From positions 1 to 36,367 of the forward strand of contig JACPPY010000010.1 of the NCBI GenBank assembly GCA_016190755.1: a DNA stretch of 36,367 nt. Reading direction: 5' to 3'. This DNA is from Chloroflexota bacterium (GTDB taxonomy: Bacteria; Chloroflexota; Dehalococcoidia; JACPPY01). Made by a program: the position numbers and the translations under genes. The notes under the pieces are model-generated. The model worked only from the letters and a program-made list of their open reading frames with translations. It was not told where the DNA came from and made no database searches. How positions within the stretch are numbered: position 1 is the stretch's first letter; every line of letters begins with the position of its first letter. This document shows positions 1,786-36,367 of the stretch, one piece after another.

Positions 1786-2122
1786 GCATGCATGTCCCCA
1801 GCCAATGTCGTCGGACAACTTGAAAGAGAAGATTGTGCCTAGTAGCATATATATAGACATATAGAAAACCATCGGCTGGATGTCGAAGGCCCGGGATCTT
1901 GTCTGGTGAACTCACGCACGGAAAAACTTCGGCCCTATGCTTGTATTGGGTGCTTTTCCTGCGCTCCTGGCCGGACGCTTGCCGCCGTGAAGACAACTTT
2001 ATCTTAATGCTAGAAGAGGCCGAAGGAAACGCGACCAACCGGGCCAGGTGCTGCTTGAAGTTTCCGGCGGATATTCAGGGGGTCCCAATCAGGGCCCTGG
2101 AGCCCATAAGGAAAGGCGTCCC

Positions 2123-3547
2123 ATGAATACGGTTGCCAATCTGCCACAGGGTGCTACTTCTGGCATCATCATACCGCTAGTTGTGTTTGTAGCCACGCTC
2201 ATCGCTACGTTCTGGCTTCGAACCATCGGTTATAGCTATGCAGCACGCTGGGCAAAGAGCAGTGGGTGGAGTGGGGAACAAACATTGCGCGCGGCCACTC
2301 GGGTCCCATCGATATTCTGGTGCATTATCGTTAGCGCATACTTGGCCTTAACTGTTTCCACCGTGCCGGCCGCGTGGAAAGGCCCCATCAACCTGACCTT
2401 GGGGAGTGTACTTGTCGTATCTATATTCATGGCTGCCATGAATATGGTGGTCAGGCTCATATATCAGCACGGCTCACGGCTCGGAATACCACGGCGAGCT
2501 CTGGGCACGGCGGCCAATATCGTGAGGGCGGTGGTAATCGTCTTTATGGTGCTTACGGTGGTGGAGATATGGGGCCTACCGTTCGCACCAGTACTGCTCT
2601 TGGTGGTCGTAGTCCTTCTGGTGGGGATATTGCTGCTGCGGGATGTTCTCCCCGATGTGCTGTCCGGGCTGCAGCTCACCAGCACTGGCAACGTGAAGGT
2701 TGGGGACCACATCAGGTTGGAGTCAGGTGAGGAGGGAGAGGTCATCGAAATGCAGTTGAGGTACACCCGAATTAGGGGAGCGGACCAGAGTGTTGCCATC
2801 ATACCTAGCTCTCGGATGGTCCGGTCTACCATCATCAATTACGGGCCGCCTGTGACGAGGGCACGCGAGCCATTTCGATTCGAGACACGTCTGCAGGTAA
2901 CGGAGCTCACCGGGCTTGGCGCCAGAAACCTGAAGGAGTTGGCCGAGATACTGAAGAAGTCTCCCGACTCCGTAGTGTACTATCATACACATAACTTCCT
3001 TCTGGAACATCATTTCCTGTTCCATGAGCCAGCCAATGATTTCGCCGCCTGGGTCGTGGATGTGCTGGGAGATGCAGTGCTTGGCGAGAGACTTGCCGCC
3101 GTAGATATATTTGAATTTCCCAATCTTGGCCAGTTGAGGGAACGGCTCGTGGAGATGATGGAAGAGTGCTTGTCGACGCAGGAAAACGGCAGACAAGCGC
3201 CGCCTGATAGGGAGTTCTACTTTCTGAAGTCCGTAAGCATGGTGTTGCCTACGTCCTATACGGCGCGCAACCTGAGGGAGTTCCTTGAGGCGCTGCGAAA
3301 GATCAGCATTGGGTCGTTGTACTTCCATGTCTTTGAGGCGCGACTGAGACTGGGCAAAGGGTTGAATGATTTTTCGACCTGGCTGAAGGATAGTATGGGC
3401 GAGGAAGAGTTAGCCCGGAAGATTGCCAGAATAGACCCGTATACTTATTCTCTGGAGGGCTTGAGATCGCTACTGATACAGTTCGTCGAACAACGGATAG
3501 AGCGAAGCTCACAGACTACGAGCCAGTTGTCGGCCGGAGCCGGATAG
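2123..3547 (+). CDS. MscS-like channel with long duplicated C-terminal domain (module 1)
   Basis: ORF 2048-3547; likely start is ATG 2123 (MNTVANLPQG). Four to five TM segments, then MscS beta-domain GNVKVGDHIRLESGEEGEV...IIPSSRMVRSTIINYGPP, then two copies of a ~95-aa domain. Close paralogue of 33973-35358. Confidence 0.85.
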   Translation: MNTVANLPQGATSGIIIPLVVFVATLIATFWLRTIGYSYAARWAKSSGWSGEQTLRAATRVPSIFWCIIVSAYLALTVSTVPAAWKGPINLTLGSVLVVSIFMAAMNMVVRLIYQHGSRLGIPRRALGTAANIVRAVVIVFMVLTVVEIWGLPFAPVLLLVVVVLLVGILLLRDVLPDVLSGLQLTSTGNVKVGDHIRLESGEEGEVIEMQLRYTRIRGADQSVAIIPSSRMVRSTIINYGPPVTRAREPFRFETRLQVTELTGLGARNLKELAEILKKSPDSVVYYHTHNFLLEHHFLFHEPANDFAAWVVDVLGDAVLGERLAAVDIFEFPNLGQLRERLVEMMEECLSTQENGRQAPPDREFYFLKSVSMVLPTSYTARNLREFLEALRKISIGSLYFHVFEARLRLGKGLNDFSTWLKDSMGEEELARKIARIDPYTYSLEGLRSLLIQFVEQRIERSSQTTSQLSAGAG

Positions 3548-3585
3548 AAGAGCTGAAGCTGATAGCCAACCGGCTGGTTGGCAAG

Positions 3586-4719
3586 GTGGTACTAAATGTG
3601 AACTCCACCTTTGTGGGCGGGGGCGTAGCTGAAATTCTATCTCGCATGGTGCCCCTGGTGCAGGAGATGGGCGTCGATGCGCGCTGGATCGTGATCAAGG
3701 GCACCCAGGAGTTCTTCCAGGTGACCAAGAAATTCCACAACGCGCTGCACGGCCGGCAGGAGGACATTACGAAGGATGAGCTGGAGTTGTTCCTTGAGAT
3801 AAACCGCAAGAATATCGAGGAACTCAATCTGGATGCGGATGTCTTTTTTATCCACGACCCACAGCCGATCGTGCTGGTGACACAGAAGAAGAAGCTGGGC
3901 AGAAAATGGCTGTGGCGCTGCCACATAGATGTGTCTCGGCCGGACCAGAGAGTGTGGGACTTCTTGCTGCCCTTTATCGTGGAGTATGACGCGGCGGTAT
4001 TCTCTGCGCCAGCCTTCTCCAGGCCTCTGGCCATCCGGCAGTTCCTGATTTCACCCTCCATAGACCCGCTGAGCGATAAGAATAGAGACCTGACACCTGA
4101 GACTATCGATTCCGTTCTGACCATGTTCGGGATACCGAAAGACAAGCCGATAATAACCCAGGTGTCCCGTTTCGATTACCTCAAGGACCCTGTGGGTGTA
4201 ATCCAGGCTTTCGAACTGGTGAAGCGGAGCGTGGACTGCCGCTTGGTGCTGGCTGGAGGAACGGCCACCGACGACCCCGAGTCGGGAAAGGTGTTGGCCG
4301 AGGTGCAGGAGCGCGCGTATGGCAATCCTGATATTCATGTGTTGTCTATTCCTCCCGACAGCAACATAGAGATAAACGCCCTGCAAAGGGCTTCCACAGT
4401 GGTCTTGCAGAAGTCGCTCAAGGAGGGTTTCGGACTCACCGTGAGCGAGGCGCTGTGGAAAGCCAAGCCGGTGGTGGCTTCAGCCGTAGGCGGCATACCC
4501 CTGCAAGTCAGGGACAAACTGACTGGCCTGTTGTCGCACGGCATCGAAGGCACCGCCTACGCTATCCGGCAGTTGTTGACCAACCCGGAGTATGCACGCT
4601 GGCTGGGAGAAAACGGGCGCGAACACGTTAGATACAATTTTCTCATCACCCGGCATATCAAGGACTACATGCTAACCTTCCTTGCCGTAGGCCGGCCTGA
4701 GGAGATTGTATACCTGTGA
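3586..4719 (+). CDS. treT: TreT-like trehalose synthase/phosphorylase, GT4 family (module 1); real N-terminus probably further upstream
   Basis: [99 protein letters not shown] are TreT/trehalose phosphorylase-type motifs. The frame stays open upstream to the stop at 3391-3393. Confidence 0.85.
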
Positions 4720-31683: not shown

Positions 31684-33159
31684 ATGTGGAACAAGAACAC
31701 GCTTTGCGACCTGGTGTCCGAGAAAATGTCTGGATACCACTTTGTTGTTGTCTCGAACCGCGAGCCTTACATACATGTCCATGAGAAAGGTGAGGTGCGC
31801 TGCCAGGTGCCGGCCAGCGGCTTGACCACGGCCTTGGATCCCGTCATGCGAGCCTGCGGAGGAACCTGGATAGCTCACGGGAGTGGGGGTGCCGATAGGG
31901 AGATGGTTGACGAGAAGAACAGGATAGCCGTGCCACCTAAAGAGCCGAAGTACACTTTGCGGAGGGTCTGGCTCTCAAAGGAGGAAGAGGCAGGCTACTA
32001 TTATGGTTTCTCCAATGAGGCCCTCTGGCCGCTCTGCCACATCTCGTATACCCGACCTGAGTTCAAGGAGGACGACTGGAACACCTACTATAGGGTCAAC
32101 CGTCTATTCGCCAACACCGTACTAGAAGAAGTGGGAGACAAGAAGGCATTCGTATTCGTACAGGACTACCACTTAGCGCTTGTACCCGGATTCCTGCGCG
32201 AAGCCGGCAATATTATTACCGCACAGTTCTGGCATATACCGTGGCCCAACCCCGAGGCTTTTCGGATATGTCCCTGGCAGACGGAAATACTCGACGGCCT
32301 CCTGGGGAACCACCTGCTGGGCTTCCATATCCGCTATCACTGCAACAACTTCCTCGACACTATTGATCGGGCTATTGAGGCCAGAGTAGACCGAGAGAGG
32401 TACGAGGTGCAACGGCGAGGCCTGAAAACGGCTGTCCGCCCGTATCCTATTAGCGTAGACTTCGACGAGTTAAACCAGGAGGCACAGCAACCTTCAGTCG
32501 AAGAGGAGGTGCAGAGCCTGAAGAAACGGCTGGAATTGGGGGATGTGGTGGTGGGACTAGGCCTGGACAGGATAGATTACACCAAAGGCATTCCGGATAG
32601 GCTCAAGGCCTTTGACCGATTCCTGGAGAGATGGTCGGAGTACAGGGGAAAGGTGGTCTTCATACAGGCGGGTGTGCCCAGCCGGGTCCACATCGGAGTT
32701 TACAAGGCACTCAACGAAGAGGTCGACAATCTTATTGAAGAGATCAACTGGAAACACTCTTCGGACCACTGGAAGCCAATCATCTATCTGCGAGAGAAAC
32801 TACGGCCACTGACGCTTACGGCCTTGCGCCGCATGGCCAATTTCTGCGTGGTCAGTTCACTACATGACGGGATGAACCTTGTGGCCAAGGAGTACGTCGC
32901 CAACCGCTTTGACGAAGACGGTGTGCTCTTGCTGAGTCCGTTCACCGGGGCCTCCAGGGAGTTGCCTGACGCCATAGCGACTAACCCGTACGCTACCGAC
33001 CATTTCGCAGCGGCCATTAAGGAGGCCGTCGAGATGCCACTGCATGAGCGCAAGCGCAGAATGCGACGGATGAGGCAGATGGTGCGAGAAAACAACATCT
33101 ACAAGTGGGCTAGCGACATGATCTCCGACCTGGCCAGGTTCGAGTTTGGGGAAGGATAG
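31684..33159 (+). CDS. otsA: GT20 trehalose-6-phosphate synthase-like protein (OtsA family, divergent)
   Basis: VVVSNREPYIH, VQDYHLALVPGFLRE, FWHIPWPNPEAFRICPWQTEILDGLLGNHLLGFH, GLGLDRIDYTKGIPDRLKAFDRFLE, VSSLHDGMNLVAKEYVA. Confidence 0.88.
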   Translation: MWNKNTLCDLVSEKMSGYHFVVVSNREPYIHVHEKGEVRCQVPASGLTTALDPVMRACGGTWIAHGSGGADREMVDEKNRIAVPPKEPKYTLRRVWLSKEEEAGYYYGFSNEALWPLCHISYTRPEFKEDDWNTYYRVNRLFANTVLEEVGDKKAFVFVQDYHLALVPGFLREAGNIITAQFWHIPWPNPEAFRICPWQTEILDGLLGNHLLGFHIRYHCNNFLDTIDRAIEARVDRERYEVQRRGLKTAVRPYPISVDFDELNQEAQQPSVEEEVQSLKKRLELGDVVVGLGLDRIDYTKGIPDRLKAFDRFLERWSEYRGKVVFIQAGVPSRVHIGVYKALNEEVDNLIEEINWKHSSDHWKPIIYLREKLRPLTLTALRRMANFCVVSSLHDGMNLVAKEYVANRFDEDGVLLLSPFTGASRELPDAIATNPYATDHFAAAIKEAVEMPLHERKRRMRRMRQMVRENNIYKWASDMISDLARFEFGEG

Positions 33160-33160
33160 A

Positions 33161-33976
33161 GTGGAGCATCTCTTCTTATCCTGGCCTGAGGTATCGCGGC
33201 AGTTGAAGGCTGCCCGCAGAGTGGCACTGTTTAGTGACTACGACGGCACTCTGGCGCCGATCGTGGAAAGGCCTGAGCTAGCCGAGATGCCCGGGGAGAC
33301 AAGGAAGTTGTTGGAAATCTTCGCGCGGCAACGCCGTCATACAGTGGGTATTCTCAGCGGACGGGCTCTGAGCGACCTCCGGGATAGGTTGAACATCAAG
33401 GGCATAGTATATGCCGGCAACCACGGGCTGGAGATTGAGGGGCCTGGAATACATTTCGTTGATCCGGTTGCCGAAGAGCTACGTCCCATTCTCAAACTGA
33501 TGCACAGAGCTTTGACCCGAGCCCTACGGGCCATAAGGGGGATACTGGTGGAAAACAAGGGGTTGACACTGAGTGTCCACTACCGTCTGGCAGGAGATCA
33601 AGAGGAGGGTCAGGTGAGGAGCATCTTCGATGGGGTCGTGGCTAATGCGCGCTCGCTGGGGAAGATCAGGGTTACCAATGGCAAGAAAGTCTTGGAGGTC
33701 AGGCCGCCGGTGGATTGGGACAAGGGCCGGGCGATTGTCTTCCTGATAGATGCCTATGCCCGGCGGAATGGAAAAGATAGGGCCCTTCCAATATTCCTTG
33801 GGGACGATCTCACGGACGAAGACGGGTTCAAGGTGCTGAAAGAACGTAACGGCATCTCCATATATGTGGGAGAAGAGAGTACCTGCAGCAGTGCCAGATA
33901 CTTCCTCAAATCGCCGGATGAGGTCCGCGAGTTCCTGGCTCGCCTGCTGGAATGCCGGGGAGGTGTTGACTCATGA
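33161..33976 (+). CDS. otsB: Trehalose-6-phosphate phosphatase (HAD superfamily)
   Basis: VALFSDYDGTLAPIVERPELAEMPGETRKLLEIFA, VGILSGRALSDLRDRL, YAGNHGLEIEGPG, EVRPPVDWDKGRAI, FLGDDLTDEDGF. GTG 33161 preceded by GGGGAAGG; ORF track starts 33146. Confidence 0.93.
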   Translation: MEHLFLSWPEVSRQLKAARRVALFSDYDGTLAPIVERPELAEMPGETRKLLEIFARQRRHTVGILSGRALSDLRDRLNIKGIVYAGNHGLEIEGPGIHFVDPVAEELRPILKLMHRALTRALRAIRGILVENKGLTLSVHYRLAGDQEEGQVRSIFDGVVANARSLGKIRVTNGKKVLEVRPPVDWDKGRAIVFLIDAYARRNGKDRALPIFLGDDLTDEDGFKVLKERNGISIYVGEESTCSSARYFLKSPDEVREFLARLLECRGGVDS

Positions 33977-35358
33977 AGAGCGCTATAGATTGGGTCACTG
34001 CCAACTGGTGGACGAACGCCCTCATACCCGTGGCGGTCTTTCTGGCCGTGCTCATAGCCTGTCTTTGGTTGAGGAGGCAAGCCTACCACCGCCTTGACCT
34101 CTGGGCCAAGAGGACGCGCTGGGGAGGTGACGAGATACTGCTGCGAGCTACGCATATGCCCTCCATAATCTGGTCAGTCATGGCAGGGATCTACTTTGCT
34201 GTAGCTGTGTCTGCACTCCCGGCGGCATCAAAGGCGCCGGCGGGCCAGGTGTTGGGCAGCCTGTTTGTCCTCTCCATTAGCCTGTGTGTGCTCAACATAG
34301 TTAATCGGCTTTCCCAGTTCTACAGGGCCAAGTGGAACCTGCCGCAGAAGACCGCTTCCATCGCCAGCAATCTGGCCGGGGCTGTTGTCCTTGGCGCTGC
34401 TGTGCTCACCACGCTAGATATTTGGGGAGTGCCGATGTTAGGCATGGTGCTCCTGTTGGCAGCAATCGGCGTGCTGGCACTGACGATCTTCAAAGACGCT
34501 CTCACGAACCTGTTCGCCGGGCTGCAACTCAACGCCAGAAACCATATAGGAATTGGAGACTACATAAAACTGGAAAGCGGTGAGGAGGGAACCATAACCG
34601 AGTTTGGTTGGCGTCATATCCAGATCCAGGCGCTGGAAGGTGGTGTGTTGATTGTTCCCAATAGCCGGCTGATCCGGTCCGTAGTCATCAACTATGGTCA
34701 TCCTTTAAAGAAGGCCAAGGTCCCGTTTTGCTTCTACAACCGCGTTCACATCACTGAGCTAACCGGATACAGGGCCAGGAACCTGCATCAACTCGCCAGC
34801 ACTTTAAGACGGGTGCCGGATTCAGTCGTTTACTATCATACCCACCATTTCCTCGAAGCGCACCACTACCTTGTACCGGAGCCGGCGAACGACTTCGCGA
34901 TCTGGGTTGGTGACGCCCTGGGCGAAGAAGAGTTGAGCGAGAGGCTGGCCGCCATTGATACCTTCGAGTTCTCCAGCCTGACAACGCTGAAGAACAGGAT
35001 AGTAGACACTATTGAGGAGTGCCTCAGCAGGGGGATGGATGGACGTCAGGCCCCGGACGGACGTGAGTTTCACTTCTTGAAATCAGTTACGGTCGGGTTG
35101 CCTACGCCGTATTCCGCTCATGACCTCCGCGAGTTCGTGGAGGCCCTCAGGAAAGTGAGCCTGGGATCACTCTACTATCATGTCTTCGAGTCCCGGATGA
35201 GGCTGGGGCAGGGAATGAATGACTTCTCGGTATGGCTCAGGGATAGTCTTGGGGAAGCTGACCTGGCGGACAGGGTAGCTGGTTTCAACCCTTATATGCA
35301 TACGTTGGAGGGACTTCGATCGTCGCTGATACAACTCGTCGAAAAGCGCATCAAATAA
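33973..35358 (+). CDS. MscS-like channel with long duplicated C-terminal domain (module 2)
   Basis: ATGA overlap with otsB stop; TM region, beta-domain HIGIGDYIKLESGEEGTITEF...LIVPNSRLIRSVVINYGHP, then two copies of the ~95-aa domain. Paralogue of 2123-3547. Confidence 0.85.
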   Translation: MKSAIDWVTANWWTNALIPVAVFLAVLIACLWLRRQAYHRLDLWAKRTRWGGDEILLRATHMPSIIWSVMAGIYFAVAVSALPAASKAPAGQVLGSLFVLSISLCVLNIVNRLSQFYRAKWNLPQKTASIASNLAGAVVLGAAVLTTLDIWGVPMLGMVLLLAAIGVLALTIFKDALTNLFAGLQLNARNHIGIGDYIKLESGEEGTITEFGWRHIQIQALEGGVLIVPNSRLIRSVVINYGHPLKKAKVPFCFYNRVHITELTGYRARNLHQLASTLRRVPDSVVYYHTHHFLEAHHYLVPEPANDFAIWVGDALGEEELSERLAAIDTFEFSSLTTLKNRIVDTIEECLSRGMDGRQAPDGREFHFLKSVTVGLPTPYSAHDLREFVEALRKVSLGSLYYHVFESRMRLGQGMNDFSVWLRDSLGEADLADRVAGFNPYMHTLEGLRSSLIQLVEKRIK

Positions 35359-35381
35359 GACTTTCTGAATACGAGCCCATT

Positions 35382-36367
35382 GTGGGCAAGAGCACAATCG
35401 AGGAATTGCGTGTATTAGCCAAACACCTTTCGGGGAAAGTGGTACAGAACATCAATTCCACCTTCACCGGAGGTGGTGTGGCCGAGATACTCAGCCGTAT
35501 GATGCCCCTGTTCAACGAACTCGGTGTGGAGGCGCGATGGAATGTAATCAAGGGCAGCCAGGAATTCTTCCAGGTGACAAAGAAGTTCCACAACGCGCTC
35601 CATGGAAGGCAAGAGACAATTACGGAAGGTGATCTTTCCCTGTTCCTGGAGGTAAGCCGGAAAAACAGCGAGGAGCTAAATCTGGAAGCCGATATCTTCT
35701 TCGTGCACGATCCCCAGCCGATCGTGCTAGTGACGCAGAAGAAGAAGCTGGGAAAGAAATGGCTGTGGCGCTGCCACATAGACGTATCCCGGCCGGACCA
35801 AGGGGTATGGGACTTCCTGTTGCCCTACATCAGCAGGTATGATGCCGCAGTCTTCTCTTCTCCGGGCTTCTCGCGGCCGCTGCCCATCCGGCAGTTCCTG
35901 ATCTCTCCGTCCATTGATCCTCTGAGCGACAAGAACGGCGACCTGCCACCGGAGATCATTGCCTCCGTCTTAACCAAGTACGGCATACCGAAAGACAAGC
36001 CCATAGTAACCCAGGTATCGCGGTTCGATTATCTCAAGGACCCTGTGGGTGTAATCCAGGCCTTCGAGTTGGTGAAGCGAAGCGTGGACTGCCGTCTGGT
36101 ATTGGCAGGAGGAACGGCTACCGACGACCCGGAGTCTGAGAAAGTTCTTGCAGAGGTCAGGGAGCGAGCATACGGTAATCCTGACGTCCATGTGCTGCTC
36201 ATTCCTCCCGGCAGTGATATTGAGATCAACGCGCTGCAGAGGGCGTCCGATGTAATAGTACAGAAGTCGATTAAAGAAGGCTTCGGGCTTACCGTGAGCG
36301 AGGCGCTGTGGAAAGCCAGACCTGTGGTAGCCTCAGCGGTGGGCGGTATAACCCTGCAGGTGACGAA
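35382..36367 (+). CDS. treT: TreT-like trehalose synthase/phosphorylase, GT4 (module 2), truncated by window end
   Basis: Not in the ORF track because it has no stop in the window. Translated by eye: [52 protein letters not shown]...[29 protein letters not shown]...[26 protein letters not shown] 35382 is the first canonical start in frame. Confidence 0.85.
   Translation, partial: MGKSTIEELRVLAKHLSGKVVQNINSTFTGGGVAEILSRMMPLFNELGVEARWNVIKGSQEFFQVTKKFHNALHGRQETITEGDLSLFLEVSRKNSEELNLEADIFFVHDPQPIVLVTQKKKLGKKWLWRCHIDVSRPDQGVWDFLLPYISRYDAAVFSSPGFSRPLPIRQFLISPSIDPLSDKNGDLPPEIIASVLTKYGIPKDKPIVTQVSRFDYLKDPVGVIQAFELVKRSVDCRLVLAGGTATDDPESEKVLAEVRERAYGNPDVHVLLIPPGSDIEINALQRASDVIVQKSIKEGFGLTVSEALWKARPVVASAVGGITLQVT

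Follow-up and report, generated by a model that had tools for sequence, protein, structure and literature searches.

A conserved AUC codon inside the upstream channel gene as the probable translation start of treT in a Chloroflexota clade

Inspection of the window, the whole 36,367-nucleotide stretch of Chloroflexota DNA analysed here, and of its relatives indicates that translation of treT in this clade begins on an AUC codon, replaced by AUU at one locus, that lies within the 3' end of the MscS-like/DUF5752 gene upstream; we give this reading a probability of roughly 0.87. The ribosome would bind a GGAGG sequence carried by the Leu-Glu-Gly codons of the channel gene and initiate on the AUC 6-7 nt downstream of this Shine-Dalgarno (SD) sequence, in the -1 frame, so that the conserved TreT domain would be preceded by about 12 extra residues, with fMet presumably at their head. 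The old ATGA/GTGA overlap of start and stop, no longer needed, would have decayed: module 1 now has GCG at this place, and other loci have ATAA or GTAA. The conserved SD, the AUH codon, the open frame and the dual constraint are directly visible in the sequences. From these we infer that ribosomes use the AUC and insert fMet there. The features of the two modules of the window are the following:

2048..3547, forward strand: module 1 channel gene (MscS-like with C-terminal DUF5752; Pfam), whose last codons bear the candidate treT initiation signals
3454..3458, forward strand: Shine-Dalgarno GGAGG of treT, module 1 (from the sequence; duplex with the 16S tail, -9.8 kcal/mol)
3466..3468, forward strand: proposed AUC start of treT, module 1 (AUH conservation; onset of dual constraint)
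3466..4719, forward strand: treT of module 1, as proposed, 417 aa (Pfam; PDB TreT chains)
3502..3504, forward strand: ancestral overlap start of module 1, now GCG (homologous to ATG/GTG/ATA/GTA in relatives)
33973..35358, forward strand: module 2 channel gene (MscS-like/DUF5752; Pfam), stop TAA
35307..35311, forward strand: Shine-Dalgarno GGAGG of treT, module 2 (from the sequence; -9.8 kcal/mol)
35319..35321, forward strand: proposed AUC start of treT, module 2 (from the sequence; conserved in start-less loci)
35319..36367, forward strand: treT of module 2, as proposed, running past the window end (79% identity to module 1 TreT)
35355..35357, forward strand: ancestral overlap start of module 2, now ATA (ATAA with the channel stop)

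The module 1 channel product matches MS_channel_2nd (2.5e-13) and DUF5752 (4e-68) in Pfam, and its treT product contains the domain pair of the TreT family (TreT_GT1, 3.1e-55; Glycos_transf_1, 2.5e-24), with a match to the NCBIfam equivalog TreT_Thcocales that lies under the curated cut-off. Homology to the solved chains 2x6q and 6zj4 suggests that the treT products are TreT-type trehalose synthases. Module 1 is arranged as MscS, MscS-DUF5752, treT and a GlgC-like nucleotidyltransferase, and module 2 as MscS, GT20 trehalose-6-phosphate synthase, trehalose phosphatase, MscS-DUF5752 and treT; the GT20 synthase and phosphatase (31684-33976) thus place two trehalose routes side by side in the latter. 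A short C-terminal TreT fragment with 80% identity on another contig (C98:3-224, G000) is probably the continuation of the module 2 gene cut at 36367. DUF5752 itself appears to be an internal two-copy repeat (window 2048-3547 and 33973-35358), and at many loci its final 130 residues match a second stretch of the same gene some 109 codons further upstream; a search of open-access literature returned no paper on this domain. In many phyla (L036-L109, Omnitrophota and others) the gene immediately before treT encodes DUF5752, an adjacency which suggests that the two are functionally linked.

Re-reading of the coordinates confirmed that in module 1 the open TreT frame extends from 3394 to 4719, that it stands at -1 with respect to the channel gene (2048-3547), and that it holds no ATG, GTG or TTG between the TAG at 3391-3393 and the GTG at 3586; the codon across the channel stop (TAG 3545-3547) is ATA (3544-3546), as an earlier note on this DNA had described. 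That note weighed only ATG, GTG and TTG, leaving other codons out, and reported no visible Shine-Dalgarno; this holds for GTG 3586 and fails for the junction as a whole, where the GGAGG at 3454-3458 had been missed. The lack of a canonical start at the conserved TreT N-terminus is not peculiar to module 1: module 2 and nine further genomes of the class show it too, and ten of the 11 start-less loci have no in-frame ATG, GTG or TTG upstream either, the exception being L118, with an ATG 41 codons upstream.

Searches of 100 relatives, 393 members of the class (probably Dehalococcoidia, judging from named relatives) and named genomes gave 46 treT sequences, which fall into two groups on the TreT tree (split support 98/93). 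In group B treT starts separately, after the channel stop, and two distinct proteins are encoded. In the other group (24 loci, both modules of the window included), treT overlaps the DUF5752 gene. Modules 1 and 2 are sister paralogues on this tree (99/97). The codon at the overlap is ATG, GTG or TTG in 12 loci of the overlap group, and L012 has an ATG three codons upstream. It is non-canonical in the remaining 11: ATA in module 2, L006, L007 and L113, GTA in L008, L010, L114, L115, L116 and L118, and GCG in module 1. Neither module of the window therefore retains a start codon overlapping the upstream stop, as in pairs of the ATGA type (GCG in module 1, ATA in module 2).

A closer look at the channel codons preceding the overlap revealed the putative initiation signals. 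In module 1 an in-frame AUC follows the GGAGG after 7 nt and stands 12 codons ahead of the ancestral overlap codon. All 11 start-less loci have GGAGG, AUC (AUU in L115) and an open frame down to the overlap codon. Shuffling (synonymous codons redrawn from the usage of each gene; loci treated as independent) would give the AUH codon in 1.9 of them, the SD in 3.7, the open frame in 6.5 and all three in 0.39. The genomes are metagenome assemblies, and the loci are related and these counts partly dependent, the latter a caveat softened by synonymous divergence that is nearly saturated even between modules 1 and 2. Of the 13 overlap loci that do have a canonical start, 6 also combine the three features, and of the 21 group B loci none does; Fisher's test of AUC against canonical start gave p 0.006 with kinship ignored, a tree-based paired test having too few pairs. 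The group B channel Arg codon is mostly AGG, giving GTC in the other frame, and ATT or GTT often precedes GA, giving a TGA within the TreT frame.

GGAGG is kept in all 17 AUH loci at a normal spacing of 6-7 nt, with pairing energies of -9.3 to -11.4 kcal/mol; at the overlap codon, 16 of the 17 pair weakly, with values of about 0 to -3.3 kcal/mol. The anti-SD sequence CACCUCCUUU was read in the 16S rRNA of three relatives, and a search for 16S rRNA in the window's own genome, which is incomplete, found none. The SD persists where the channel residue changes (Glu to Gly in L008, Gly to Ala in L115), and so does AUH (Ser to Leu in L115, which gives AUU; Arg to Lys in L118). RNA folding at the two junctions of the window showed nothing unusual (z 0.33 and 0.48). 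The arrangement, with SD and AUC inside the channel gene, is conserved across at least 12 families of Chloroflexota, and the AUC is very probably the start of treT.

A different non-AUG start, by termination and reinitiation, was suggested by the ATAA/GTAA series: ribosomes ending the channel gene would restart on the AUA or GUA that overlaps its TAA stop, as found in ten loci, the ATG/GTG loci having TGA at the same place. Relatives retain 4-nt ATGA/GTGA overlaps, infC starts at AUA in this class, and coupling at such overlaps is documented (PMC6728339). This reading was nevertheless dropped, and we consider it improbable: in module 1 the overlap codon is GCG and the channel gene has its stop 43 nt later (3545-3547), the overlap lacks an SD in 16 of the 17 AUH loci, and the conserved SD, AUH codon and frame upstream, with the constraint there, would be left unexplained. 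To our knowledge GUA is not among the known start codons, which counts against it as well. The earlier note's idea of a non-AUG start thus survives in kind; in the form of reinitiation at the overlap it gives way to an SD-directed AUC 12 codons upstream. Module 1 is the clearest locus in this respect, with GCG at the overlap, the channel extended to 3547 and only the SD and the AUC remaining. The channel gene here has lost the stop of its relatives (TAA to CGA; window 3496-3547) and gained about 14 codons, which overlap treT. The six AUH loci with ATG or GTG also at the overlap may have two starts side by side.

The coding constraint on the overlap agrees with initiation at the AUC. In the 11 start-less loci, a set picked without regard to AUC, synonymous identity over the last 17 codons of the channel gene is 1.73 times background (background sd 0.04), and 1.69 times (sd 0.06) over codons 7-16, past the SD and the AUC; the same stretches in the group B control gave 0.98 and 0.95, respectively. 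With one locus per family (12 families, window excluded) the ratio is 1.62. In the 17 AUH loci, a set chosen by AUH and hence biased toward the SD and AUC sites, it is 1.58, and the increase starts at the Leu codon of the SD, with none before. The peptide read in the TreT frame across the overlap has a mean identity of 0.54, where open-frame shuffles give 0.32; six control stretches taken from these genes stay near expectation. The consensus of the extension (~12 residues) is I-x-T-D-T-A-Y-R-K-T-H-Q. Constraint and conserved peptide together indicate that, from about the AUC onward, this stretch has the character of a sequence translated in the TreT frame.

Translation of this stretch in the -1 frame could also follow from a programmed -1 frameshift by the end of the channel gene, giving the channel-TreT fusion proposed in the earlier note. 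The frame and the dual coding would suit it, 15 of the 17 AUH loci have GAA AAR, whose A_AAR tetramer is able to slip in E. coli (PMC4066793), and slippage can be stimulated by SD-like elements. The tetramer is however missing from L004 and from module 1 (GAA CAA), leaving no conserved slippery motif, and where present it comes only after the conserved AUH codon and the greater part of the conserved extension, whereas the synonymous constraint begins at the SD. In five loci (L006, L011, L114, L116 and L119) the TreT frame has a stop at codon -20, eight codons before the AUC and a few upstream of the SD, so that ribosomes could not come into this frame from further upstream; between these stops and the AUH the loci have no slippery site in common. 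A fusion would have no need of the AUC, and group B relatives encode two separate proteins. We therefore regard the frameshift as very unlikely.

A start lower in module 1, either at AUA 3544 by the new channel stop or at GTG 3586, the truncated start of the earlier note, is just as hard to sustain. AUA starts exist in this class and a GGAG (3536-3539) lies 4 nt upstream of AUA 3544, but this GGAG is formed by conserved Arg-Ser codons of TreT itself. The segment that would be lost, LTDYEPVVGRS, is conserved across phyla and between the two modules despite saturated synonymous divergence. The KLTDYEPVVGRSRIEEL segment, absent from a product begun at GTG 3586, is conserved among relatives and partly aligned to the solved TreT chains; these align from residue 42, GTG 3586 corresponding to residue 65, and such a start would thus remove conserved residues of the enzyme. 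A sequencing or assembly error, or a decayed gene, scarcely deserves consideration. The genome behind the window is indeed of metagenome type and incomplete (2.09 Mb, 81% complete), and in module 1 neither the ancestral stop nor the overlap start survives, but the relatives largely refute it, module 2 and nine other genomes sharing the start-less arrangement. The module 1 and module 2 TreT pair has a dN of 0.12 against a dS of about 1.5, a contrast that shows purifying selection on TreT; the channel genes are synonymously saturated.

Family f44 (L120, L121, L125 and L132) is a natural counter-test of the proposed AUC start. An altered channel tail there provides an SD of the AAGGAG/AGGGAG type before an overlap GTG, TTG or ATG (-8.9 to -9.3 kcal/mol), and the AUC is lost in three of the four loci, L132 keeping both the AUC and the overlap start with its SD. 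In L009 the SD and AUC are gone, a TGA stands in frame and the overlap ATG is kept. Taken as a series, these loci suggest that start codons have turned over in both directions.

The best-known near-cognate starts are those of infC, AUU in E. coli, AUC in Streptomyces and AUA in S. aureus (PMC5472188, PMC13009471). The treT start would resemble them in being AUH, here too behind an SD, with AUC itself documented; it differs in that the infC start lies outside the coding sequence of other genes and serves autoregulation through its weakness, treT encoding a metabolic enzyme. In the class studied here infC was found in 12 of 14 genomes and appears to begin with ATA in all 12 (L145-L156, the window's own included; read by eye from aligned N-termini), mostly behind a GGAG-type SD, which appears to be a conserved near-cognate start for IF3. 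Loss of IF3 as a cause of lax start choice was considered and rejected, infC being present.

Streptomyces sigR, with a GTC start shown experimentally to be repressed by IF3 (PMC5472188), likewise combines a conserved non-canonical start with a strong SD, was initially mis-annotated and belongs to an adjoining ATGA-coupled gene pair; the codon is GTC rather than AUC, sigR is the first gene of its pair, and the evidence there is experimental, that for the proposed treT start coming from sequence. In S. aureus cvfC1 (AUU) and ccpN (AUA) an extended SD yields about 10-30% of AUG expression (PMC13009471), and strong SD and AUH start are both kept across species, as here, but dual coding within an upstream gene is not reported for them. 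The ATGA/TGATG pairs (PMC6728339) are like the ancestral channel-treT layout that persists in some relatives; in the window the overlap start has decayed and initiation has apparently shifted 36 nt upstream, where it has an SD and an AUC of its own. Within the open-access literature no report was found of a conserved AUC start nested inside another gene. The treT start would therefore be an SD-directed near-cognate start whose novelty lies in its position within the upstream coding sequence, which also constrains it.

This nesting may explain the choice of codon. Because the channel keeps Arg-Ser with Ser as TCN, only NTC would be possible in the TreT frame; among these AUC is the sole one that differs from AUG at the third base only, and it is a documented start, that of Streptomyces infC (PMC5472188). 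In L115, where Leu (TTA) replaces Ser, the codon is AUU. AUC is a weak start in known systems. Such a start, which may also be sensitive to IF3, may keep TreT scarce compared with the channel, and its use may be modulated by translation of the channel, as the SD and the AUC lie in channel-translated mRNA. Modules 1 and 2 are plausibly an osmotic-stress set. The full combination, a lineage-wide relocation of the start to an AUC dictated by the channel Arg-Ser, with a low TreT:channel ratio policed by IF3 and reversible through an overlap SD, is put forward tentatively, with the odds somewhat against all of its parts holding together.

For annotation, gene callers limited to ATG, GTG and TTG would truncate TreT or misplace its start in many genomes. 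If the proposed start is true, it would be a rare conserved AUC start besides infC, with the codon choice set by a second reading frame, and the natural series of loci with AUC only, AUC plus NTG, and NTG with SD only would make start-codon turnover traceable on the tree.
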